From NCBI GenBank assembly GCA_003460745.1, contig QTVU01000018.1, positions 1-55,762 on the forward strand: a stretch of 55,762 nt of DNA, read 5' to 3'. The stretch is from Firmicutes bacterium AM55-24TS. GTDB taxonomy: Bacteria; Bacillota; Clostridia; UBA1381. The notes beneath the pieces were generated by a model, which had not been told where the DNA came from, did not search any database, and saw only the letters and a list, made by a program, of their open reading frames with translations. Below, in pieces: positions 23,740 to 50,117 of this stretch; position 1 is the stretch's first letter, and the number at the start of each line of letters is the position of its first letter. The translations under genes were made by a program, and so were the position numbers.

Positions 23740-24309
23740 ATGAAAAAATATGAATTGACTGATGAAACAATAGAGGTGTATGGAACAGCATTACACAGAA
23801 TTAAAGCTCTAAAAGATTTTGGTAATGTAAAAAAAGGAGAGCTTGGAGGTTATGTTGAAAGCGAACACAATTTATCTCAAGAAGGTAACTGTTGGGTGTG
23901 CGGTAATGCAGAGGTGTATGATAATGCAGAGGTGTATGATAATGCAGAGGTGTGCGGTAATGCAGAGGTGTATGATAATGCTTTGGTGTACGGCAATGCA
24001 AAGGTGTACAGCAATGCAAAGGTGTACAGCAATGCTTTGGTGTGTGGCAATGCAGAGGTGTGCGGCAATGCTTTGGTGTACGGCAATGCAGACTATATAA
24101 CAATAAAAGGATTAGGTTCAGTGTGTAGGAATACAACCATTTTCAGAACAAAGGGTAAAAATATAGCTGTTAAATGCGGTTGTTTTTACGGAACATTAGC
24201 CGAATTTGTTGACAAGGTAAAAGAAACACACGGTAATAGTAAGTTTGCCAAAGAATATCTTGCGTTAATTGATTTGGTAAAAATCCACTTCGAATTGGAG
24301 GATAAATAA
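23740..24309 (+). CDS. Hexapeptide-repeat (beta-helix-like) protein (189 aa)
   Basis: An N-terminal module (YELTDETIEVYGTALHRIKA, then GELGGYVESEHNLSQEG) leads into 11 tandem units of the form V-[YC]-[DGS]-N-A-[EKL] (residues 53-118), predicted to wind into a parallel beta-helix. A C-terminal cap (GCFYGTLAEFVDKVKETHG) follows. This architecture is frequent in phages and prophages of Clostridia, with variable repeat number. Biochemical role unknown; the family link is from memory of similar proteins. Confidence 0.8.
   Translation: MKKYELTDETIEVYGTALHRIKALKDFGNVKKGELGGYVESEHNLSQEGNCWVCGNAEVYDNAEVYDNAEVCGNAEVYDNALVYGNAKVYSNAKVYSNALVCGNAEVCGNALVYGNADYITIKGLGSVCRNTTIFRTKGKNIAVKCGCFYGTLAEFVDKVKETHGNSKFAKEYLALIDLVKIHFELEDK
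23896..24093 (+). repeat. Eleven 18-bp tandem repeats within a gene
   Basis: Units of the type GTGTATGATAATGCAGAG encode the hexapeptides. The DNA identity between units is high enough to allow slippage in steps of six residues, keeping the frame open. Confidence 0.9.
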
Positions 24310-31319: not shown

Positions 31320-31601
31320 ATGTGGGAAGATATTTTAGGTCAATTAACAAAGTTGTCCAAAGAGCAACTCATTTACATAATTGAACAATACCGCAAAGCA
31401 ACTCTGAGAATGAGTAATGCCCTCGTAAGAGAAAGTATGTGTTATATTCATTCAACGGATGCATGCGATATTATAAGGGATTGTATATCTGATTGTGATT
31501 TTATTCGCAATCATGAATTGGCTGCCTATGTAGATATGAAGCTTGGCAAGATTTCCGGTGAAGAATATAGAGATATAGTGTTGAGAGAAGATGCCGATTA
31601 A
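31320..31601 (+). CDS. Hypothetical helical protein (93 aa)
   Basis: MWEDILGQLTKLSKEQLIYI, predominantly helical; CYIHSTDACDIIRDCISDCD gives four clustered cysteines (about residues 42-62). It ends 100 bases before the ATPase gene. Confidence 0.72.
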   Translation: MWEDILGQLTKLSKEQLIYIIEQYRKATLRMSNALVRESMCYIHSTDACDIIRDCISDCDFIRNHELAAYVDMKLGKISGEEYRDIVLREDAD

Positions 31602-31701
31602 ATATTACTTTCAAAGGATAGAAAAGGAGAATAAACTTATAAGTCAGTATGTTAAATCACATAAGATGATTTTTCAAATATACAAAAAAAGGAGAAATAA
31701 A

Positions 31702-34275
31702 ATGAACGGATTAAACGAAAAAGAAGTTCTGAAAAGTCGAGAACAACACGGAAGTAATAAACTTCCCGAACCAAAGCTGAAAAAGTGGTATGAATTTGCC
31801 AAAGAGGCATTGAGTGAAAAAATAACACTCATATTAATTGCAATTGCAGCATTGCAGTTGGTATTGGGTATTATGGGTGTTATGGATTTATCTGACCCAA
31901 TTATGATATTAGTTGTATTAGGAATTGTAACAGCCATAGCAATAAAAACAGGCTTAGGAGTTCAAAAGTCGGCAGCAGAGTTGAGAGCTAAAACGTCATT
32001 AAGATATTGTGATGTTATTCGTGATGGCAAGGTGCAAACAATCAATAAAGATGATTTAGTTGTTGGTGATATAGTTTGTATCGGAATGGGACAAGAAATC
32101 TTTGCTGACGGTTATATCATAGAAGGAAAAGTTTCTGTTAATAATGCTGCAATTAACGGAGAAACGAAAGAATGTTTAAAAACACCTGTCGAAGGTTATA
32201 AACATGTAAAAACAACTTCAACGGATGCATATACAAATCAGAATTCTTTATTTGCCGGCACAACAGTTATGTCGGGTGAAGGTAAGATGATTGTAACTGA
32301 TGTCGGTATAAACACTGTCAACGGTGATACACTTGTTAAAATGCAAACTCTTGAATCACCAAAAACAGCACTTGATATTGCTCTCGATAATTTAAGCGAT
32401 TTTATATCTAAATGGGGTACTATTGCAGCAGTTGTTACATTCATAGTTTTGACTATTTCGGGTATTCTGCAAGTAGGTTTTGGAGCATATTTCGATGGTG
32501 GTATTTTAAATATCATTCAGAAAATCGCACAAAATTTTTCAATCGCATTGACGATTATAGTCGCTGCTGTACCAGAGGGACTACCGCTGATAGTTAAATT
32601 GGTTACAAAGCAAAATGTTAAAACGATGGAAAGGTTCAACATTTTAGCTAAGAACCCAAACAAAATACCTGAGCTTGCGTATGTTGATATAATTTGTACA
32701 GATAAGACTGGTACTTTAACTACAGGTGTTATGACGCCGAAAAAAATCATTGATATGTTCGGTAATGATATTAATAAGAATTCGGAAGTTTGGGGAGATA
32801 TTGAAAAAAATATCTGTTTGAATAATAGTGCAAAATTCGATTCTGAAAATAATATTACAGGCGGTAACTCTATTGACAGAGCAATATTAAGCCTTGTATC
32901 GTCAGAAAAATATGCTGAAATTCAAACGGAATATCCGATAAAATCTCGCCAAGCGTTTAATAGCGAATACAAATATTCAGCTTATACCACTCAAAACGGT
33001 GTTACATATTACAAAGGTGCTCCTGAAAAACTTATCAAACACTGTAATTTGAATACGGAAGATAAGGACAATCTAAACAATGATATAAAATCTATGACAA
33101 AGAATTCAATGAGATGTATAGCATTAACAAAGTCAAACGAAGATTTAAAAGAAAGTGAATTACCTGATGATATGACATTTCTCGGTATTATCGGTGTTGT
33201 TGATCCAGTAAGAGAGGAAGTTCCACAGGCAGTAAAGATGGCACATGAAGCAGGTATTCAAGTTATCGAAATCACAGGTGATTGTATTGAAACTGCCGTC
33301 GCAGTTGCTAAAGAATGTGGTATTTATAAAGATGGTGACGTTGCTCTTACAAATGATGAATTTGAAAAGATGTCAGATGAAGAAGTAAAAAACATTATTC
33401 CGTCTTTGAGAGTAATCTCAAGATGTTCACCAAATACCAAACTTCGTCTTGTGACATTAGCACAAGAAATTGGTAAGTCAGTTGCTATGACAGGTGATGG
33501 TGTAAACGATTCACCGGCACTTAAAAGAGCCGATGTAGGCTTTGGTATGCAGTCGGGCAGTGATGTAGCAAAGGAAGCATCAGATATAATCCTTACTGAC
33601 GATAACTTTGCAAGTATTGTAAAAGGTATTGAACTTGGAAGAACATTTATGCACAACATTATGATGTTTCTTGAATTTCAATTGCCTATAAATATATCTT
33701 TGTTGATATTAAGTGTTATTTATCCTATGTTGGCAACCGGAGCTTTACTTGCATCGGTACAAATTTTGATTGTAAACATTATAATGGACTCGCTTAATTC
33801 ATTGTCTTTCGGTGGCGAACCACCTAAAGAAGAATATATGACAGAAAAACCAATTAAAAAAGGCTCAGGTCTATTTATTCGAGGTGCAAAGAAACGTATT
33901 ACAATCAGTACGGTAGCATTCGTAGTTTTGTATGCGATTATAACATTTACACCAATAGCGAATATGTTTGCTACCGAAACAGAAGCCATAACAGCAAGAT
34001 TCGCTTTGTTGTGTTTCATGGCGGTATTTAACGGTTTCAATATCCGTACAGAACATATTAATCTGTTTGAGGGTATTAGCAAAAATAAATTGTTTTCTAT
34101 TATAGCAGCCGGTATAGTGGTGATGACATTTTTCTTGTGTAATATTGCTCAAAATCTCATTAAGGTTACTGCATTAGATTTAAAGCAATGGATAGTTGTC
34201 ATATTGCTATCATTTATAGTTATACCGATTGATATTGTCAGAAAATTATGTGTAAAAAGTAAAAAGCAAAATTAA
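31702..34275 (+). CDS. P-type cation ATPase, Ca2+-transporting (P2) type (857 aa)
   Basis: All landmarks are present: actuator-loop NGETKE, M4 motif AAVPEGLPLIV, phosphorylation site CTDKTGTLT with Asp334, KGAPEKL in the nucleotide domain, hinge MTGDGVNDSPALK, and M6 VNIIMDSLNSLSFGGEPP resembling the plasma-membrane Ca2+ pump pattern. About ten membrane spans are predicted. It would pump Ca2+ (or Mn2+) out of the host at the cost of ATP. ATG at 31702 follows AAAAAGGAG; a longer upstream frame lacks a site. It is followed 15 bases later by three TerD genes, whose products bind Ca2+. Full-length and apparently functional, remarkable for a phage. Confidence 0.93.
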   Translation: MNGLNEKEVLKSREQHGSNKLPEPKLKKWYEFAKEALSEKITLILIAIAALQLVLGIMGVMDLSDPIMILVVLGIVTAIAIKTGLGVQKSAAELRAKTSLRYCDVIRDGKVQTINKDDLVVGDIVCIGMGQEIFADGYIIEGKVSVNNAAINGETKECLKTPVEGYKHVKTTSTDAYTNQNSLFAGTTVMSGEGKMIVTDVGINTVNGDTLVKMQTLESPKTALDIALDNLSDFISKWGTIAAVVTFIVLTISGILQVGFGAYFDGGILNIIQKIAQNFSIALTIIVAAVPEGLPLIVKLVTKQNVKTMERFNILAKNPNKIPELAYVDIICTDKTGTLTTGVMTPKKIIDMFGNDINKNSEVWGDIEKNICLNNSAKFDSENNITGGNSIDRAILSLVSSEKYAEIQTEYPIKSRQAFNSEYKYSAYTTQNGVTYYKGAPEKLIKHCNLNTEDKDNLNNDIKSMTKNSMRCIALTKSNEDLKESELPDDMTFLGIIGVVDPVREEVPQAVKMAHEAGIQVIEITGDCIETAVAVAKECGIYKDGDVALTNDEFEKMSDEEVKNIIPSLRVISRCSPNTKLRLVTLAQEIGKSVAMTGDGVNDSPALKRADVGFGMQSGSDVAKEASDIILTDDNFASIVKGIELGRTFMHNIMMFLEFQLPINISLLILSVIYPMLATGALLASVQILIVNIIMDSLNSLSFGGEPPKEEYMTEKPIKKGSGLFIRGAKKRITISTVAFVVLYAIITFTPIANMFATETEAITARFALLCFMAVFNGFNIRTEHINLFEGISKNKLFSIIAAGIVVMTFFLCNIAQNLIKVTALDLKQWIVVILLSFIVIPIDIVRKLCVKSKKQN

Positions 34276-34290
34276 AAGGAGGATTTGTTT

Positions 34291-34869
34291 ATGTCGATTA
34301 GTTTGGTAAAAGGTCAGAAAATCGACCTTACAAAAGGTAACAGTGGGTTGAGAAAAGTTGCGTTTGGTCTTGGTTGGGACACAAATAGATACGATGGCAA
34401 TTCAGACTTCGATTTGGACGTGTCAGCTTTTCTTACAGATGACACAGGGAAAGTAACAAGTGAAAAGGATTTTGTATTCTATGGTCAACCACAACATCCA
34501 AGTGGAGCATTAATTTATTCAGGTGATAATAGAACTGGTGAGGGTGATGGTGATGACGAAACAATGATTGTTGATTTAAATAAAATCCCGTCTAATATCA
34601 TAAAAATCAGTTTCTCTGCAACAATATATGATGCAGATGAGCGTTTGCAGAATTTCGGTATGGTTGATAACTCATATATCAGAGCTTATGATGTCGACAC
34701 AAATGAGGAATTGTTTAAATATGAATTGAATGAAGATTTCTCATTGGAAACAGGAATTATTGCCGGTGAATTATATCGTAAAGATAATGAATGGCGATTT
34801 AATGCCGTTGGCAGTGGGTACGAAAATGGCTTGGCTGCTATTGGAAGAACATTTGGATTGGATATTTAA
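34291..34869 (+). CDS. TerD-family Ca2+-binding stress protein 1 (192 aa)
   Basis: ATG at 34291 (MSISLVKGQKIDLTKGN) behind AAAAGGAGG. It has the TerD signature: [36 protein letters not shown] with the acidic Ca2+-site residues, and a C-terminal GELYRKDNEWRFNAVG. TerD proteins are beta-sandwiches that bind Ca2+ and belong to the Ter stress system (tellurite, phage and colicin phenotypes). First of three tandem copies. Confidence 0.94.
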   Translation: MSISLVKGQKIDLTKGNSGLRKVAFGLGWDTNRYDGNSDFDLDVSAFLTDDTGKVTSEKDFVFYGQPQHPSGALIYSGDNRTGEGDGDDETMIVDLNKIPSNIIKISFSATIYDADERLQNFGMVDNSYIRAYDVDTNEELFKYELNEDFSLETGIIAGELYRKDNEWRFNAVGSGYENGLAAIGRTFGLDI

Positions 34870-34887
34870 AAGTAGGAGGATATACAT

Positions 34888-35475
34888 ATGTCAGTTAATT
34901 TAAGTAAGGGACAAAGAATAAATTTATCTAAGGAAGTTGAAGGACTATCAAAAATTATGGTTGGACTTGGCTGGGATGCTGCAAAACAAAGTGGTGGAAT
35001 TCTAAATCATTTATTTGGTTCTACAAGCTATAGCATTGATTGCGATGCATCTGCAATAACTATGGGAAATGGTAATAAATATAGAGCTTGTATTTATTAC
35101 GGAAATCTATCTGAAGATAATGTTTATCATCATGGTGATAATCTAACCGGCGATGGTGATGGCGATGACGAACAAATAACAGTAGATTTAGCTCATTTGT
35201 CAAGTGAGATTGAACGAATAGTTTTTGTTGTAAACATTTATAATTGTACAGAAAGAAAACAAGATTTTGGCTTGATAAAAAATGCATATATTCGACTTGT
35301 TGATGAAAGTACAGGAAAAGAGATTTGTAAGTATAATCTTTCGGATGATTATGCAGGCAAGACTGCAATGATATTCGCAGAAGTATATAGAAACAATGGC
35401 GAATGGAAGTTTAATGCCATAGGTCAAGGCACGAACGATGCCAGCATTAGTCAATTAATAAATAGATATAGATAA
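34888..35475 (+). CDS. Divergent TerD-family protein 2 (195 aa)
   Basis: Same fold (KGQRINLSKEVEGLSKIMVG, then GDNLTGDGDGDDEQI, C-terminal AEVYRNNGEWKFNAIGQG). The usual FDLD is replaced by SIDCDASAI after a longer loop (KQSGGILNHLFGSTS). Variant TerD-like paralogues with altered sites sit beside canonical ones in bacterial ter operons too. A distinct partner or ligand is likely. Confidence 0.92.
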   Translation: MSVNLSKGQRINLSKEVEGLSKIMVGLGWDAAKQSGGILNHLFGSTSYSIDCDASAITMGNGNKYRACIYYGNLSEDNVYHHGDNLTGDGDGDDEQITVDLAHLSSEIERIVFVVNIYNCTERKQDFGLIKNAYIRLVDESTGKEICKYNLSDDYAGKTAMIFAEVYRNNGEWKFNAIGQGTNDASISQLINRYR

Positions 35476-35494
35476 AAATTAGGAGGTAACTATA

Positions 35495-36076
35495 ATGGCA
35501 ATTTCATTACAAAAAGGACAAAGAGTTGATTTAACAAAGGACAGACCATCATTGAAAAATGTACTTATTGGACTAGGTTGGGATATCAACCATTATGACG
35601 GTGAGACAGATTTTGACTTGGATGCATCGGCTTTCATGACAAAAGCAAATGGTAAAGTAGGTAACGAAAACGATTTCATTTTCTATGGAAATCTTAACCA
35701 TGTATCAGGAAGTGTCCAGCATATGGGTGATAATCGTACTGGCGAAGGCGATGGAGATGATGAGGTAATTAAAGTTCAACTTGATAAAATTCCATCGGAT
35801 TACGACACAATTTCATTTACTGTTACAATTTATGAAGCTGAAAAAAGATTGCAGAATTTTGGAATGGTTGAAAATGCTTATGTACGTCTTATAGACGAAG
35901 ATACGGGTGAGGAACTTGTTCGTTTTGATTTGACGGAAGATTTCTCAACAGAAACAGCTTTAGTTGTTGCTGAGATATATAAGCGTGATGGACAGTGGAA
36001 ATTTGCAGCTATCGGAAGTGGTTATGACGGCGGTTTAAAAGCATTATGTAAAGAATACGGCATTGATGCTGAATAA
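35495..36076 (+). CDS. TerD-family Ca2+-binding stress protein 3 (193 aa)
   Basis: [55 protein letters not shown] and [16 protein letters not shown]: a canonical TerD, closer to copy 1 than copy 2. AGGAGG upstream. Ends just before a strong hairpin. Confidence 0.94.
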
Positions 36077-40369: not shown

Positions 40370-40682
40370 TTGTTGGCGGTATAGATAGTAATATGTGGCT
40401 TGATAATGGTAAACAATTATCAAGAAATTTTAAACAAGGATATAGAGTATATAGTAGCGAAGGCATTGCTTGTTCAATTACATCTAATGGTGGTGGGTTC
40501 GGTGCATGTAATGGATTGTATTTGATGTGAAATGAGGTAAGAAAATTAAATACAACAGTAGCAGATCGATTGCAAACATTGCCTGATAATTATACATTCT
40601 GCGACGGTGTTTCCGAAGCACAAGTATTGGTAATGGTTGGACGGTTTCAGTAATATCTCATATATTAAGTTTTATAAAATAG
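40370..40682 (+). pseudogene. C-terminal wreck of a second cytosine-5 methyltransferase
   Basis: Fragments appear in three frames: IFVGGIDSNMWLDNGKQLSR ... YRVYSSEGIACSITSNGGG (target-recognition region), then TVADRLQTLPDNYTFCDGVS, then SIGNGWTVSVISHILSFIK ending at TAG 40680-40682 (motif X, GNGWT). The N-terminal catalytic part is absent. At least two frameshifts separate the pieces. It touches the end of the intact enzyme and the start of TnpB. Confidence 0.78.
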
Positions 40683-40687
40683 AGAAT

Positions 40688-41920
40688 ATGTTAAGTAAGG
40701 GGGGTATTAATTTTAATAAAGTAGAGAGACATATAATCAACAAAAATCATCCAATGTATTCAGCTTGTGATAATTTATGCTTTTTGGCAAAGAACATGTA
40801 TAACCTTTGTAATTATACAATTCGGCAAGAGTTCTTCAGAACAAAGACAGTTAAGAAGTATGGTGTCTTGAATAAGGAATTAAAGCATACTGACGCTTTT
40901 GTGGAACTTGGATCAAATGCAGCACAGATGGTTACAAAATCTTTATGTAAGTCATGGAAATCATTTCTTGTAGCAGTTAAAGATTACACGATGCATCCCA
41001 AAAAGTATTTGGGTAAACCTAAAATTCCTGCTTATAAAAAGAAAGATGGCAGATTTATTTGCACATTGACTAATATGCAGACACATATTAAAGATGGATA
41101 TTTATATTTTTCTTTTAAAAGAATGAAGAAGTACAATAATCTTATTCACACAAAAGTTATAGGCTATCATCTTGGGACAAGAATTATTCCTAAGGGTGGT
41201 TGTTACATTATTGAAATTGTCTATAGGGATGAAAAGCAGTTTATAAATAATTTGGATAGAAACAGAATCTCCTCAATTGATTTAGGAATAAACAACTTTG
41301 TAACAATGGTAAATAACATAGAAGAACCTTCTATTGTTATAAATGGCAAAGGAATCAAATCTTATAACCAATATTGGAATAAGAAAGTTTCTAATCTAAG
41401 AAGAATTGCGAAAGCTATAAATGGATCGGATTGGACTAAACGGATGCAAAATCTCACGAATAAAAGATATTTCAAGATGGAATATTTCATGCATTGTACA
41501 AGTAGGTGGGTCGTTGACTATTGTGTAAATCATAATATTGGAACACTTATTATTGGTAAAAACGATGGTTGGAAACAGAAATCAAATATGCATAAGGTTG
41601 TTAATCAAACATTTACTCAAATACCGTATGAGAGTTTCATTAAAAAACTTGAATACAAATGTGAAGAGGCTGGCATTGATTTAATTGAAACAGAAGAGAC
41701 TTATACATCAGGAACATCTTTCTTAGATGATGAATTACCTATAAAAGAAAATTACAACAAATTACGAAGAGTCTATAGAGGGCTTTTTAGAAGCAACAAC
41801 GGAAAATATATAAATGCCGATGTTAATGGGGCATTTCAAATAATGCGCAAAGTATTCTCAAATGTGAAAGCAAATGAGATAGTGGGTGCATATTCACATC
41901 CTGTAATTATAAATTTGTAA
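40688..41920 (+). mobile_element. tnpB: TnpB-family RNA-guided nuclease, zinc-ribbon-less type (410 aa)
   Basis: The N-terminus matches the TnpB pattern VERHIINKNHPMYSACDNLC and NLCNYTIRQEF. The RuvC active site is complete: Asp198 (SIDLGINNF), a Glu at 336/337 (ETEETYTSGTSFLDDE) and Asp378 (INADVNGAFQI). The usual CxxC zinc ribbon is replaced by YTSGTSFLDDE, as in one known TnpB subgroup. No TnpA transposase is present. The longer frame from 40637 only reads through methyltransferase debris, so I start at 40688, though its ribosome site (AGAG) is weak. TnpB proteins cut DNA beside a short motif, guided by RNA from their own 3' end. Confidence 0.9.
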
Positions 41921-42334: not shown

Positions 42335-43024
42335 ATGAAAAGACAAATTAGAAGAAATGTTTTTGAAACAAATTCATCGAGTATGCACTCTCTTACTGTA
42401 ATGAAAAGAGATGAACATTATTCGCCAGAAGAATTTTTAGATGGCTTTTATTTGGGAGATGATGGGATATGGAGTCCTTGGGACGATGATTTAGAATTTG
42501 GTAGAAGCCCATTTAGAGCATTAGGAAATTTTCATGATAAATGGTTATATGCTTGTGCGTCTTTAGTGGACGAATATAATGATGATACATATAAAGAACT
42601 TGAGCAAATTGCATTAAAATATGTTCCAGGTTTAAAGAAAATCGAAATTCCTATGAGGTCGGATTTTGTTTATAACAAAGATTATCCAGATTATAGCAAC
42701 GATGAATTTGTGCAAGAATATGGGAAAACAGAAGATGAATTAAATGAATATTTTAATCAAAAAGGTGAAAAATGGGGAGTCGATTCAATTGATTATTATG
42801 AGAATAAAGGACGATTCTATTTTGAAGAACCATATACGGGTTACGTTGATGAAAATATATTGAGCGGTTTTCTTGAAAGAGAGAATATATCTTTAGAAGA
42901 ATATTTAACCAATAAAAAATATGTAGTTATTCAAGACGGTGATGAAACTTGCTATTGGAATGCTATGAAGAAAACTGGATTGGTAAATATGGATATTATT
43001 GATTATGAGTATCCAAAAGAATAA
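42335..43024 (+). CDS. FETNSSS-tag protein 1 (229 aa)
   Basis: The N-terminus MKRQIRRNVFETNSSSMHSL is a conserved opening known from many uncharacterised phage and mobile-element proteins. The rest is acidic and aromatic (WSPWDDDLEF, EEPYTGYVDENILSG, VVIQDGDETCYWNAM). The next gene starts with nearly the same 20 residues but has a different body. AGGAGG site. Conserved leader-like N-termini on variable bodies resemble recognition tags for a modifying enzyme; a radical SAM enzyme lies two genes on. Function unknown. Confidence 0.8.
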   Translation: MKRQIRRNVFETNSSSMHSLTVMKRDEHYSPEEFLDGFYLGDDGIWSPWDDDLEFGRSPFRALGNFHDKWLYACASLVDEYNDDTYKELEQIALKYVPGLKKIEIPMRSDFVYNKDYPDYSNDEFVQEYGKTEDELNEYFNQKGEKWGVDSIDYYENKGRFYFEEPYTGYVDENILSGFLERENISLEEYLTNKKYVVIQDGDETCYWNAMKKTGLVNMDIIDYEYPKE

Positions 43025-43044
43025 TATAAGGAGAATAAAAATAT

Positions 43045-43458
43045 ATGAAAAGACAGATTAGACGTGGAGTATTTGAAACCAATTCATCAAGTACCCATTC
43101 ATTAACAATGTGTAGTGAGGAAGAATTTGAGCAATGGAAGAAAGGTAAAGTCCTATTTGATGAGAATTATGAAACATTTGTAAAAGTAAGTGAACTATCA
43201 AATAAAGATAAGGAATATGCTGCTCAAGAGTATGAGGATAATAAAGATGAGTATTCAAAAGATTGGTCAGAATTATCAGAGACTGCGAAAGAAAGATATT
43301 ATACAAAATATGCAAAAGAGAATGATCTTATAAATGAAGATGCAAAAACTTATGAGGAATGGGGATGTTGTGACTATCTGGAAACTTTCGTAGATAAATA
43401 TACAACCAAAAGTGGAGACCGAGTTGTTGCGTTCGGTAAATACGGATATGATGGTTGA
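43045..43458 (+). CDS. FETNSSS-tag protein 2 (137 aa)
   Basis: MKRQIRRGVFETNSSSTHSL opens a charged, helical protein (QEYEDNKDEYSKDWSELSET) with a short Cys-Cys (EEWGCCDYLE) and the C-terminus VAFGKYGYDG. Compared with gene 1, 18 of the first 20 residues are identical and the remainder shows no similarity I can see. It may be shortened relative to longer family members. AAGGAG site. Confidence 0.8.
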   Translation: MKRQIRRGVFETNSSSTHSLTMCSEEEFEQWKKGKVLFDENYETFVKVSELSNKDKEYAAQEYEDNKDEYSKDWSELSETAKERYYTKYAKENDLINEDAKTYEEWGCCDYLETFVDKYTTKSGDRVVAFGKYGYDG

Positions 43459-43515
43459 TTAAGAGTCAAAACATTATAGTGAATGAAAAGTATGAAGGAT
43501 ATTTGGGAGGTAAAA

Positions 43516-44412
43516 ATGAAAATTTTAGGGAGTTACACGAATGGAAATTTTAGAACTGCTATATTTGAAGATGGAACAAAAATAAGAGAAACAAATGATG
43601 ATGAGTTTCAGGCTGCCTTTGCAGAAAATATGGATATAAAAATAACAAACTATTGTGATATGGGCTGTCCGTTCTGTCATGAAGGAAGTACAACAGATGG
43701 CAAGTTCGGTGATATTATGAATGAAAAATTCATTGATACTCTACATCCATATCAAGAAGTTGCACTTGGTGGTGGAGACGCTACAAGTCATCCTGATTTA
43801 ATTCCATTTTTGCAAAAACTAAAGGATAGAAAAGTCATTGTAAATATGACAGTAAATCAAACCCATTTCGAAAAAAAACAAGGCTTGATAAAGAAGCTTG
43901 TAGACGAAAAGCTCATATATGGTTTAGGAGTTTCACTTGTAACTCCCACAGAAAACTTTATTAAACTTATCAAACAATATCCTAATGCAGTCATTCATGT
44001 AATCAATGGTGTGTTAAAGCCATCAGACATACAGGCGTTGGAGAATAATAATTTGAAGATTTTGATTTTGGGATATAAACATTTAAGACGTGGTGATGAT
44101 TTTTATGATATAGACCATGAGAATATTGAAATTAGGCAAAGCTGGTTGTATGAAAATCTTTCGAATATTATTGAAAAGTTTAATGTTGTTAGTTTTGATA
44201 ATTTAGCCATTGAACAATTAAATGCGCGAAGATTAATGACGGACGAAGAATGGAATGAGTTCTATATGGGTGACGATGGTACAATGACCTATTATATAGA
44301 CATGGTAGAACGAAAATTTGCAAAGAGTTCAACGGCTGCGTTTGACAAAAGATATGATTTGTTAGATTCTGTTGATGAAATGTTTGAGCAAATAATATCT
44401 CAACAGAGTTAA
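43516..44412 (+). CDS. Radical SAM enzyme (298 aa)
   Basis: The 4Fe-4S/SAM motif CDMGCPFC supplies Cys47, Cys51 and Cys54 (CX3CX2C). A GGGDATSHPDL segment (about residues 83-93) is the GGE-like SAM-binding strand, and VNMTVNQTHF continues the barrel. There is no C-terminal SPASM cysteine cluster, so it is a single-cluster enzyme. ATG at 43516 follows GGGAGG. Directly downstream of the two tag proteins, which makes them candidate substrates. Reaction unknown. Confidence 0.88.
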   Translation: MKILGSYTNGNFRTAIFEDGTKIRETNDDEFQAAFAENMDIKITNYCDMGCPFCHEGSTTDGKFGDIMNEKFIDTLHPYQEVALGGGDATSHPDLIPFLQKLKDRKVIVNMTVNQTHFEKKQGLIKKLVDEKLIYGLGVSLVTPTENFIKLIKQYPNAVIHVINGVLKPSDIQALENNNLKILILGYKHLRRGDDFYDIDHENIEIRQSWLYENLSNIIEKFNVVSFDNLAIEQLNARRLMTDEEWNEFYMGDDGTMTYYIDMVERKFAKSSTAAFDKRYDLLDSVDEMFEQIISQQS

Positions 44413-45603: not shown

Positions 45604-46173
45604 ATGAGTACAAAATATTATATACATACACAAAACAAGGAATTTGTTGAGAAGTATTTCTTTAATGAGTATAGACTTGTGGACGAACCTTGTTTTGGCT
45701 ATGAAATTTGTATTGGGCGTAGAAGTGGTGGATGGAAGCCTTTGTTTAATCAACACAACGACGCATATACTTCCGTTAAAGAAATGAAAGAATTTTTATC
45801 CATACATTCCGATAAAATTTCTATATATGATGAATCTGAACGATTTATTACTTTAAATGAATTAGAAGATGAGTTAATAAATTGGGGAGAGCATCAGGCA
45901 GTCAAGTATATGAAGTATAACGCTCAAGAATCCGACTTAGACGATATTCGTTTTGATATAAGCACAAAAGACGATTATGATATAAAAGCTCCATTTGACC
46001 ATATTGAATATGACAAAGTAATAGATAAGCTTGCTCCTGAATTGAAAACATACAGAGGTCATTATACTCATGATAAAGATAATTATGATTTTGTGTCGGG
46101 CTGGTGGAGTAACCCAAGACCAAGAGGATTATTAAGGAGGTTGTTTAATGAGTTGGAATCCAGTAATGAATAA
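45604..46173 (+). CDS. Hypothetical phage protein (189 aa)
   Basis: MSTKYYIHTQNKEFVEKYFF, then EICIGRRSGGWKPLFNQHND: an alpha/beta N-terminal domain common in T4-like and other large phages, adjacent to unknown C-terminal sequence. It overlaps the RNA ligase start by 26 bases and provides the ligase ribosome site (AAGGAGG), so the two are coupled. Confidence 0.75.
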   Translation: MSTKYYIHTQNKEFVEKYFFNEYRLVDEPCFGYEICIGRRSGGWKPLFNQHNDAYTSVKEMKEFLSIHSDKISIYDESERFITLNELEDELINWGEHQAVKYMKYNAQESDLDDIRFDISTKDDYDIKAPFDHIEYDKVIDKLAPELKTYRGHYTHDKDNYDFVSGWWSNPRPRGLLRRLFNELESSNE

Positions 46174-47455
46174 ATTCATTGAAATAAAAAATGAGTTTCA
46201 TAAAAGAATGGGATATATTACATATGACATGGACGGGAAGAAAACCTGTTTGGATTTATGGGTCGAATGTTTAAATAACATTAAACCCATAAATCAATAT
46301 CCTGAATATACAGATTTGCTTTCAATACTAGAACTAAACCAAAACGGACAGTTTCTTCTTTTGAGATACGGTCAATATAGCGACATCTATAATGGAGAAG
46401 TTGATAATTCTGGTGAAGAATTATGGAATAAATATGATGGATTCTATCGTGAATGTAGAAGCATAGTAATTGATATAGTAAATGACAAAATAGTTTTGTG
46501 TCCATTTGCTAAATTCTTTAATATTAATGAACTTGAAGAAACAAGTTTGGAGAATATACAAAGTAGAATTGACAATGCAAAAACAGTTGAATTTTCAAAT
46601 AAGTTGGACGGTTCTATGCAATCAGCTACTTGGTATAACGGTCAAATTGTAATGGCAGGGAGTCAATCTATTGACCCAAATATGTCTTGGAGATTACAAG
46701 ATGGTTATAAAATGATATATCAGCTACCTGGTTATGAGCAAATGTTGCGAGAATATCCCGATATCACTTTTGTTTTTGAGTACATTTCATTGAAAGATAC
46801 ACATGTCGTTAAATACACAAAAGAGCAAGAAGGATTATATCTTATCGGCATGAGAAGTAATTTGACCGGCGAAGAATATTCATATGAATCAATTCTCAAA
46901 TTCGCAAAATTATACAATATTCCAACAACAGAAATCTTCAACAAGACCTTGGATGATGTTATGACCGAATTAGACGATAAGTCATCTGATGAAGCGGAAG
47001 GTTTTGTAATCAACATTGACGGTTATAAGGTTAAATTAAAATACAATGATTATGTTCATATTCATAAAGTATTATCTAAGTTATCGTCTATCAATTTAGT
47101 GATTTCTTCTATCGCCGACGGCTGTTATGATGATTTACTATCGAAATTACCAAAGGCTTATCATGAAAATGTTAAGAAGATAGCAACCGTTGTTATGAAG
47201 TATATTAATGAGACCACAAAAAATATAAAACAATACTATGATGATGCTCCCAAAACCAATAAAAAAGATTTTATGATATATGTTTCAGAAAATGTTCCTA
47301 AGGAGTATCAAGTATATTGTAGAGAATTATATTATGGTCATGATATCAATGTTTTAAAAAGTGGCAACAAAAAGTCACCTCGATATAAAAAATTAAAGGA
47401 AATGGGAGTAGACGATTATTCTGTACTCTTCAAGGAGGAATTGAAGGATGTTTAA
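46148..47455 (+). CDS. T4 Rnl1-type RNA ligase (435 aa)
   Basis: Nucleotidyltransferase motifs run in order: I NKLDGS with the AMP-accepting Lys152, RECRSIVIDIVNDK upstream as in T4 RnlA, IIIa FVFEYIS, IV EAEGFVIN and V VKLKYNDYVH. The C-terminal 130 residues are the helical, RNA-specific domain. Rnl1 seals 3'-OH to 5'-phosphate ends in tRNA anticodon loops cut by defence nucleases. Overlaps the next gene by 8 bases. A complete, probably active enzyme. Confidence 0.94.
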   Translation: MSWNPVMNKFIEIKNEFHKRMGYITYDMDGKKTCLDLWVECLNNIKPINQYPEYTDLLSILELNQNGQFLLLRYGQYSDIYNGEVDNSGEELWNKYDGFYRECRSIVIDIVNDKIVLCPFAKFFNINELEETSLENIQSRIDNAKTVEFSNKLDGSMQSATWYNGQIVMAGSQSIDPNMSWRLQDGYKMIYQLPGYEQMLREYPDITFVFEYISLKDTHVVKYTKEQEGLYLIGMRSNLTGEEYSYESILKFAKLYNIPTTEIFNKTLDDVMTELDDKSSDEAEGFVINIDGYKVKLKYNDYVHIHKVLSKLSSINLVISSIADGCYDDLLSKLPKAYHENVKKIATVVMKYINETTKNIKQYYDDAPKTNKKDFMIYVSENVPKEYQVYCRELYYGHDINVLKSGNKKSPRYKKLKEMGVDDYSVLFKEELKDV

Positions 47456-48251
47456 ACAAGAAGTGCAAAATCAAATTCAACAACATTATGACAAACTTAT
47501 ATCGTTAGGCTACAATGTTGTTGGTGTATTTTTATACGGTTCACAAAATTATGAGTTGGATTACTCTGGTTCAGATGTCGATTCAAAAGCAATAATTCTT
47601 CCTACATTAAACGATATTGTGTTTAATCGTCAACCGGTAAGTACGACACTTGATATGGGGAATGGTTGCTTATGTGATGTGAAAGATATTCGTAAAATGT
47701 TTGAGTGTTTTAAGAAACAAAATATTAACTTTGTTGAACTTTTGTTTACTCAATATTATATTTTAAATCCAATTTATGAAGAACTATTCGCACCTATGCT
47801 TGATAATGCCGAAAAAATTGCAAGGTACAACAATTACGCAAGTGTTAATTGTATGTGCGGAATGGCATTTGAAAAGTACAAAGCTCTTACATATCCGTAT
47901 CCAAGTATTGTAGATAAGATTGAGAAATATGGTTGTGACCCCAAACAATTACATCATATTTTACGTTTGAAAGATTTTATCGAAAGATATTGTAATGGCG
48001 AAAGTTACCGTACTATTTTAATCCCTAAAAATAAGGATATGTTGCTCGATATTAAATCTAATTATCATTATGAATTAGAATATTCAAAAAATTTAGCAAA
48101 AGAAACGTGTGAGTGGATTAAACAATATAAACAAGAGTATATGGAGAATAATCCATTGGAGATTAATACTGAAGCAAAAGATGTTATGGAAAAGGTGATG
48201 ACAAACTTAATTACATTCAGTATAAAAAATGAGGTGTGTAGGAATGAGTAA
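47448..48251 (+). CDS. RlaP-type nucleotidyltransferase (267 aa)
   Basis: The polymerase-beta-fold motif is visible as VFLYGSQNYELDYSGSDVDS (residues 26-45), with GS and the DxD pair for metal and nucleotide. The pattern YGSQNYGLxxxxSDxD is that of RlaP, the RNA-ligase-associated predicted nucleotidyltransferase (PF10127). It should add or repair nucleotides at RNA 3' ends before ligation. Overlapped by genes on both sides, as in dedicated repair operons. Confidence 0.9.
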   Translation: MFKQEVQNQIQQHYDKLISLGYNVVGVFLYGSQNYELDYSGSDVDSKAIILPTLNDIVFNRQPVSTTLDMGNGCLCDVKDIRKMFECFKKQNINFVELLFTQYYILNPIYEELFAPMLDNAEKIARYNNYASVNCMCGMAFEKYKALTYPYPSIVDKIEKYGCDPKQLHHILRLKDFIERYCNGESYRTILIPKNKDMLLDIKSNYHYELEYSKNLAKETCEWIKQYKQEYMENNPLEINTEAKDVMEKVMTNLITFSIKNEVCRNE

Positions 48252-49128
48252 ACCAAAACTATATGTTATGTGTGGTTTGTCCGGAAGTGGCAAATCTACT
48301 ATTGCAAAACAGATTACAAATGATAATCCTGATACAGTTATTATATCAACTGATATGATACGAGAACAATTAACCGGCGAAATCGGAGACCAATCTCAGA
48401 ATGATGAAGTCTTTGAAATTTTTCATACACTAATCCGAAAGCGTTTGGAGAATAAATACAATGTGATAGCTGATGCAACAAATATTACAATGAAATCTCG
48501 CCGGGCAATTCTAAATAAGGTTAACGGATTAGACATAGAAAAGATTTGTTACATAATACCGAAACCATTCGAGTGGTGTCAACAAGATAATAAAAATAGA
48601 CCACACCCTGTTCCCGATGAAGTGTTGGAAAAGCAAATTAGAAGATTTGAAATCCCTTTCATTGAGGAAGGGTGGAGCAAGATTATTATTCATGATGAAT
48701 TTAAAAATCATGTGAGAAATTTGGTTAATGAAATAGCTTATATGGGAGATTTCGACCAAAAGAATCCTCATCACACAATGGATTTGTACAAGCATTGTTT
48801 AAATACTAAGAAATTAATGAAAGAAAAGGGTTATGAAAATCCTTGGCTGGGCGGTGCGATGATGCATGACTTAGGTAAATTGTCAACTCAAACATTTGAT
48901 GATCTTGGCATAGCTCATTACTTTGACCATCACGCATACGGTTCGTATTTTGTATTGAGTCGAATACCTCAAAATTTAGAAGTATTAGACATATGTTTCC
49001 TTATCAATTATCATATGTTGCCGTTTAGTTGGGAAAGTGAAAAAACGAAACAACGCTGGCGAAAAAGATTCGGAGAATATAAGTATAAGATACTTATGGA
49101 TTTTCATGAATGCGATATACAGAGGTGA
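48244..49128 (+). CDS. Polynucleotide kinase fused to an HD phosphohydrolase (294 aa)
   Basis: Walker A GLSGSGKST (residues 11-19) with Asp37 (ISTDMIR) is the T4-Pnk-type 5'-OH kinase. After about residue 165 comes an HD domain (PHHTMDLYKHC, MMHDLGK with His208-Asp209, HYFDHHAYG). T4 Pnkp uses a HAD domain for 3' end cleaning; here the HD domain probably plays that role on 2',3'-cyclic or 3'-phosphate ends. Start at 48244 rather than 48229, because GAGGTG serves it. Confidence 0.9.
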   Translation: MSKPKLYVMCGLSGSGKSTIAKQITNDNPDTVIISTDMIREQLTGEIGDQSQNDEVFEIFHTLIRKRLENKYNVIADATNITMKSRRAILNKVNGLDIEKICYIIPKPFEWCQQDNKNRPHPVPDEVLEKQIRRFEIPFIEEGWSKIIIHDEFKNHVRNLVNEIAYMGDFDQKNPHHTMDLYKHCLNTKKLMKEKGYENPWLGGAMMHDLGKLSTQTFDDLGIAHYFDHHAYGSYFVLSRIPQNLEVLDICFLINYHMLPFSWESEKTKQRWRKRFGEYKYKILMDFHECDIQR

Positions 49129-49140
49129 TAAAGGAAATAT

Positions 49141-49548
49141 ATGAGTAAAGAGTTATCTAATAGAGAACAAAAGTTTCGGGATGAGTATATGGATATTTTG
49201 TATCAGGCTATAAGGAAAGAACATCCACCTGGGAAATACCTTCTCTTAGACAAGGACGATTTGAGAAAATTGACGGAACTGTTCAAAAGAGTTTATCAAG
49301 AAGGAGAATATATCGATATGAATGATATTAAAGAATTTCTTACAAAAGAGCATAAAGAACTTATTCATAAGAAAATTGTAAAAACAATTGAGGATATGGA
49401 CTTTACTTCCATAATACAAGATTTTATCAAAGATGAATTAGATTATGTCAAATGCAATGCTAATGTTGATGCATTCTTAGAAAATCAGATTATAGAAATT
49501 ATCCATCAGCATTTAGTCAAGAGCGGTTTGTTAAAGGAGAATAATTAA
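49141..49548 (+). CDS. Hypothetical helical protein (135 aa) in the RNA-repair operon
   Basis: MSKELSNREQKFRDEYMDIL, all helical, charged, with IKDELDYVKCNANVDAFLEN. AAAGGA upstream. Its position between kinase and phosphoesterase suggests a subunit or specificity factor; no family recognised. Confidence 0.75.
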   Translation: MSKELSNREQKFRDEYMDILYQAIRKEHPPGKYLLLDKDDLRKLTELFKRVYQEGEYIDMNDIKEFLTKEHKELIHKKIVKTIEDMDFTSIIQDFIKDELDYVKCNANVDAFLENQIIEIIHQHLVKSGLLKENN

Positions 49549-49550
49549 GC

Positions 49551-50117
49551 ATGAACTATTTTATTTCAGATTTACATTTGGGTCATAAGAATGTTTTAAA
49601 GTTTGATAATCGTCCATTTATCAATATAGAAGAACATGACAAAACAATTATTGATAATTGGAATAGCAAAGTTAATGATAATGACGATGTATATGTCTTG
49701 GGTGATATTAGTTGGCACAATGCCACCAAAACTATTGAAATTTTTAAACAGTTAAAAGGGCACATACATTTAGTTCAAGGAAATCATGACAATAGAATAT
49801 TAAAAAACAAAGAATTATACAACTTGTTTGTCGAGGTTGTAGATTACAAGGAACTAAAAATTGACAATGAAGTTTCAGTTGTTCTATGTCATTATCCAAT
49901 GCCATGTTTTAAAAATCATTACTATGATTGGATACATCTTTATGGGCACGTACATAATAGTTTTGAAGAAAATATGATACAACATTTTAGATATGAAATG
50001 GGAGCATTATATGATAAACCTTGTCATATGTACAATGTCGGTGCGATGATGAAGTATATGGATTATACACCGAGAACACTAGAAGAAATTAGAACAGGAT
50101 GGATATTAGAATCATAA
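49551..50117 (+). CDS. Calcineurin-like phosphoesterase of the RNA-repair operon (188 aa)
   Basis: Motifs SDLHLGH (Asp7, His9), VLGDISW, GNHDNR, CHYPM and GHVHNS are complete. This compact type is frequent in phages and sits in RNA-repair operons as a candidate 2',3'-cyclic phosphodiesterase or phosphatase. Two bases separate it from the previous gene. Substrate inferred from context. Confidence 0.9.
   Translation: MNYFISDLHLGHKNVLKFDNRPFINIEEHDKTIIDNWNSKVNDNDDVYVLGDISWHNATKTIEIFKQLKGHIHLVQGNHDNRILKNKELYNLFVEVVDYKELKIDNEVSVVLCHYPMPCFKNHYYDWIHLYGHVHNSFEENMIQHFRYEMGALYDKPCHMYNVGAMMKYMDYTPRTLEEIRTGWILES

Follow-up and report, generated by a model that had tools for sequence, protein, structure and literature searches.

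A near-identical N-terminal tag on unrelated phage proteins and the neighbouring radical SAM enzyme that probably modifies it

Why should two proteins start with nearly the same 20 residues, differ in everything that follows and be encoded directly before a radical S-adenosylmethionine (rSAM) enzyme? This question is raised by a segment of contig QTVU01000018.1 of Firmicutes bacterium AM55-24TS, of which 55,762 nucleotides, the whole stretch analysed, are called the window here. An earlier note, based on the bare sequence, had suspected a post-translational modification system. Its description of the genes is accurate. Two open reading frames (ORFs) on the forward strand, at 42335–43024 and 43045–43458, encode proteins of 229 and 137 amino acids (aa), which represent families A and B, respectively. 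They are spaced by 20 bases and are followed by the rSAM gene on the same strand. The shared start (MKRQIRRxVFETNSSSxHSL), hereafter the tag, reads MKRQIRRNVFETNSSSMHSL in the 229-aa protein (42335–42394) and MKRQIRRGVFETNSSSTHSL in the 137-aa protein (43045–43104), with differences only at positions 8 (N/G) and 17 (M/T). In family A it precedes an acidic folded body, while the family B protein, encoded directly 5' of the rSAM gene, ends in a conserved FGKYGYDG. At the DNA level, the window contains the tag pattern two times, compared to zero in 100 shuffled versions. The ORF of the enzyme is open from 43483, but the gene most likely starts at 43516 (43516–44412, 298 aa), since a GGAGG site, read by eye, precedes this in-frame ATG. 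The cluster cysteines named in the earlier note, Cys47, Cys51 and Cys54, agree with this start and form the CxxxCxxC motif at 43654–43677.

Tag and enzyme form a real module, found widely in collections of phage sequences. When viral contigs were scanned with nothing but the tag, 279 relatives were obtained; the 80 best were retained and correspond to 78 loci. A same-strand rSAM gene of this subtype was found in 64 of 76 new loci, and the remaining two (L003 and L005) also have one. For genome contigs, obtained from bacterial and metagenome-assembled genome records with the tag-only scan, the number was 43 of 49 loci. The reverse scan with rSAM patterns alone (126 relatives, best 80 kept) gave 75 new loci, 67 of which are tagged, or 68 when another residue is allowed after the histidine (L218). 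In five of the seven untagged loci, no more than 1,710 bases separate the enzyme from a contig end; this does not hold for L188 and L196. Two or three tagged proteins are encoded within 5 kb in 42 of the 75 loci. Enrichment of rSAM genes beside tag proteins, on which the earlier note had made its suspicion depend, is hence seen from both directions.

The linkage is far closer than random placement predicts. With one enzyme placed at random in each of 76 contigs, a distance to the tag of at most 1 kb is expected in 6.0 contigs (maximum of 100,000 simulations: 17), but was observed in 62. For contigs of at least 60 kb the observed number is 37 of 47, compared to 1.7 expected. Related contigs are not independent, so that 64 enzymes less than 60% identical were additionally drawn from 203 enzyme places. 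A tag lies within 1 kb in 58 of these and within 3 kb in 62; L218 becomes the 63rd by its variant tags, and L216 sits at a contig end. The nearest tagged gene is an upstream family B gene in 35 of these 64 loci. Comparison of neighbouring genes (ORFs of at least 70 aa within 6 kb, BLAST expectation value (E) 1e-6) did not reveal a third partner, the next commonest same-strand family being present in only 7 of 64 loci; at these limits, partners that are very short or evolve fast could go unnoticed. An opposite-strand cluster of 16 was obtained as well, whose example and median position fall within the enzyme gene.

Among 50,697 phage records, the tag was found in 24 and a close enzyme (193–298 bits) in exactly the same 24, in line with the statement of the earlier note that the tag family recurs in phages. 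Two lineages account for them: Lak phages of Prevotella (15 records) and Microcystis phages of the Ma-LMM01 kind (nine records). In Ma-LMM01, the tagged gp130 and the rSAM enzyme gp128 are separated by an untagged 112-aa protein (gp129, L022 12535–12873). Eight further phage records with distant enzymes (57–74 bits) gave no tag match, and inspection by eye of annotated neighbours of distant untagged enzymes (Salmonella phage Arash and two plasmids) revealed no recognisable partner. Exceptions exist in the other direction too. Of the whole records behind 12 enzyme-less tag loci, four have the enzyme elsewhere, in three cases well off the tags, and eight have none. Two of the eight end at the tag (L026 and L096), and the longest others comprise 183,649, 135,854, 121,629 and 67,719 bases, none being known as complete. 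A search for a host chromosomal counterpart covered 391 genomes belonging to the same class as the nearest genome and found the enzyme in none (E 1e-25), an empty result that is uninformative for want of a positive control.

The tag itself is basic (isoelectric point, pI, of 11.7) and near-invariant. In 286 distinct tags from a profile search, which favours tag-like sequences, E11, N13 and S15 are present in all, S14 in 285, R6 in 284, H18 in 281, T12 and S16 in 277 each and F10 in 272. N13T and S15C occur as rare variants among proteins from database searches (P0089, P0050), and H18 is replaced by D at one locus (L105). The tryptic peptide of the tag starts with GVFETNSSSTHSL. In loci fetched by tag or enzyme, 392 of 398 body-profile matches above 40 bits carry the tag, and the other six are the L105 variant, three matches at contig edges and two readings of a single gene whose tag is read in a different frame. 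A search with the 229-aa body alone gave 384 proteins; among the 120 listed, 101 are tagged, and 15 of the 19 untagged ones start exactly at a methionine inside the tag, probably reflecting a misplaced gene start. In seven loci (L094, L133, L178, L192, L195, L220 and L222) F10 is replaced by W, and four of them each encode one protein with N instead of H18. These loci are seven members of one eight-member clade among 124 enzymes, and one enzyme column (K versus Y/H) varies along with W10. As the pattern represents a single evolutionary event, it was discounted as evidence for coevolution of tag and enzyme.

The bodies behind the tag, judged by eye as unrelated in the earlier note, show no detectable homology: profile–profile comparison of families A and B yielded a probability of 2.3% (E 0.021, 16 columns). 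The sole local likeness is a short FGx[FY]G motif, which may be a second shared element; body A has it close to its beginning and body B at its extreme C-terminus (43432–43455 in the window). Single-linkage clustering of 291 distinct tagged proteins assigned 149 to family A and 110 to family B. The 287 tagged proteins of at least 80 aa have a median length of 166 aa (5th and 95th percentiles 97 and 254 aa), with up to about 330 aa seen, in keeping with the earlier remark that the two carriers of 137 and 229 aa in the window are not short precursors. Neither of these two proteins matches a Pfam or NCBIfam family at E 0.1. Similarly, 0 of 104 family A members match Pfam, while 78 of the 104 match phrog_28997. 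Tagged proteins are acidic, with a median pI of 4.60 (95% below 5.5; n = 287), compared to 5.51 (50% below 5.5) for 1,531 other ORFs of 80–260 aa in the loci, and the median falls to 4.39 without the tag. Such acidity may point to binding of proteins or nucleic acids, but is no proof of it.

The AlphaFold2 model of family A (104 rows) has a mean predicted local distance difference test score (pLDDT) of 93.9 and a predicted template modelling score (pTM) of 0.88. Residues 1–10 average 65 and residues 11–20 average 75, later blocks reach 91–98, and secondary structure is absent before residue 16. According to this prediction, the tag hangs as a flexible tail from a compact fold of high confidence. 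In this family, the strongest conservation thus coincides with the region that is not confidently folded, as would be expected of an enzyme target or a docking signal.

The enzyme matches the rSAM family PF04055 with 33.8 bits (cut-off 29.5) and phrog_16999 at 2.7e-46, confirming the class assigned in the earlier note, and the rSAM barrel fold is present. The three cluster cysteines are invariant in 16 rows and form the only conserved cysteine columns across 58 enzyme rows, the next reaching 26%; exactly three cysteines were counted in 85 of 120 listed relatives. Peptide maturases (SkfB, SuiB and EpeE) are the nearest solved structures. In the model, three strands without the three helices of a RiPP recognition element (RRE; RiPP, ribosomally synthesised and post-translationally modified peptide) precede the barrel. 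In a joint model with the enzyme (pTM 0.71), tag residues 2–6 (KRQIR) form a strand and residues 1–10 have a mean pLDDT of 92, while residues 14–19 remain below 50. By eye, enzyme residues 22–31 (KIRETNDDEF) loosely resemble the tag (IRxxVFETN) and might mimic it. Of 7,999 scored candidates in the database search for the enzyme, 7,954 are relatives at E 1e-20; for one tag protein, the numbers are 2,071 (E 10) of 2,109. Assignment as a defence system was rejected, a weak pVip match being the only PADLOC match below E 0.01. An adjacent substrate with a glycyl-radical motif (RVxGY), the mark of a glycyl-radical activase, was not found beside the enzyme.

Taken together, the two-way linkage, the predicted tail of family A, the maturase-like fold and the lack of a conserved third partner support the peptide-modifying logic proposed earlier. 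We infer from them that, with good probability, the single-cluster rSAM enzyme recognises and modifies the N-terminal tag on folded phage proteins. The module would consist of two parts, one enzyme and one to several proteins with the common tag. The enzyme would recognise the tag by its basic first residues (xxIR), which may dock as an extra beta strand. A 5'-deoxyadenosyl radical would alter a residue in the flexible, near-invariant F-E-T-N-S-S-S-x-H. E11, N13, S14 and S15 vary least and are hence the most likely targets. The joint model gives weak evidence for a possible minimal docking sheet, in which the enzyme strands would hold the tag strand while ETNSSS swings into the active site. 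Since an auxiliary cluster is absent, a redox-neutral change or a reductive quench appears likelier than an oxidation. The acidic folded bodies would be passengers in the reaction and perform the actual function, and the modified tail would give them a functional group or address label in common.

The closest known enzymes are the rSAM RiPP maturases SkfB, SuiB and CteB, of the sactipeptide, streptide and ranthipeptide type, to whose structures the sequence identity is 11–16%. In NisB, LynD and CteB, according to an excerpt of PMC6231123, a three-stranded enzyme sheet takes up the leader as an extra strand; the same docking is predicted there for SkfB, while the leader of SuiB bypasses this domain. 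The phage enzyme differs from SkfB, SuiB and CteB in lacking SPASM or Twitch cysteines and, as far as its model indicates, the helical part of an RRE. Its proposed substrates are whole proteins rather than peptides, folded in the model of family A. A conserved peptidase or exporter gene was not found either, as none of the non-tag same-strand families exceeds the 7 of 64 loci given above. Owing to the lack of these three RiPP characteristics (short precursor, auxiliary cluster, peptidase or exporter gene) we do not assign the module to the RiPP systems, although the evidence best supports a RiPP-like way of working, with a dedicated rSAM enzyme and a leader-like segment for recognition. The rSAM peptide epimerases EpeE and those of proteusins use a critical cysteine, as stated in an excerpt of PMC8326336. 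In contrast, the phage enzyme conserves no fourth cysteine column, and it has a single cluster, compared to two in EpeE. Pairs of a target family and an adjoining dedicated rSAM enzyme, found by genome context, are also represented by the His-Xaa-Ser (HxsC) type. The phage enzyme matches HxsC weakly (E 0.03, 13.2 bits, compared to a family cut-off of 267.9), and the phage tag is N-terminal and single instead of a repeat. In the library, phrog_16999 is labelled 'Fe-S oxidoreductase' only and phrog_28997 as of unknown function, with no link stated between the two.

An alternative explanation is that the tag is a mere docking leader and the radical chemistry targets the bodies, in analogy to classic leader/core peptides. 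The strand formed by residues 2–6, the strand-type docking in NisB, LynD and CteB (PMC6231123, in part) and the FGx[FY]G motif common to both bodies would fit. Beyond this motif, however, the bodies share no residue pattern, body A is compact and confidently modelled, and the strictest tag residues are the polar flexible ones rather than those of the strand, so that we regard this explanation as unlikely. We give the same low standing to the view that the tagged proteins regulate the enzyme or serve as its adaptors, its true substrate being, e.g., a nucleotide, RNA or a host protein: two or three tagged proteins with unrelated bodies lie within 5 kb in more than half of the enzyme-scan loci, no conserved third gene supplies another substrate, and peptide maturases match the enzyme better.

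Tags are placed at gene starts and often in tandem, which could also be expected of a feature at the DNA or RNA level (a shared promoter, a recombination or gene-duplication site) that is translated incidentally. Such an origin is very improbable. Codon use at conserved tag positions is mixed and codons are freely exchanged, with all three serines encoded by both TCN and AGY. Within 22 tag codons, the two window genes show nine synonymous and three nonsynonymous differences, indicating that the likeness is held at the protein level and does not stem from a recent DNA copy. Finally, chance adjacency of common phage genes, which the locally conserved gene order of related phages could feign, hardly deserves consideration given the linkage across the 64 divergent enzymes, in contigs of at least 60 kb and in phages of both Prevotella and Microcystis.

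Several other features of the window were noted, mostly by eye. A TnpB-type transposon protein-like ORF (40637–41920) lies directly 5' of a small helix-turn-helix gene and the tag genes. Unusual phage cargo is located at 31591–36076, where a P-type cation ATPase-like ORF is followed by three consecutive TerD-like ORFs. An RNA-repair-like group at 46148–50117 includes a T4 Rnl1-type RNA ligase (PF09511) and a nucleotidyltransferase (phrog_388), along with kinase-like and phosphoesterase-like ORFs. The protein encoded at 23740–24309 contains tandem short repeats, e.g. NAEVYDNAEVYDNAEVCG, in mid-sequence.

The portable N-terminal tag on unrelated phage proteins, paired with one dedicated rSAM enzyme, looks new. 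No paper on the pairing was found in titles and abstract starts of the open PubMed Central literature, a scope outside which bioRxiv and most subscription papers fall, and the string ETNSSS was not found in this literature. Many large phages equip unrelated proteins with the same 20-residue tail, nearly always encoded beside one rSAM enzyme that probably changes it chemically. More tentatively, and with odds that we put below even, the module could serve radical-chemistry labelling in large phages of gut bacteria and cyanobacteria, i.e. modular protein tagging and not a natural-product pathway. The same unusual residue would then be placed on the tails of unrelated acidic effector proteins, as a built-in reactive group, cofactor or address tag used on host targets.

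A single linked system would unite thousands of proteins that are now mostly unnamed, hypothetical or annotated just as radical SAM, and it points to a class of function for genes conserved in Lak and Ma-LMM01 phages. A direct test requires no more than one enzyme and a peptide of 20 residues. If the proposed reading is true, a phage places one radical modification on many proteins via a portable N-terminal signal, which would also be useful as a protein-labelling tool.
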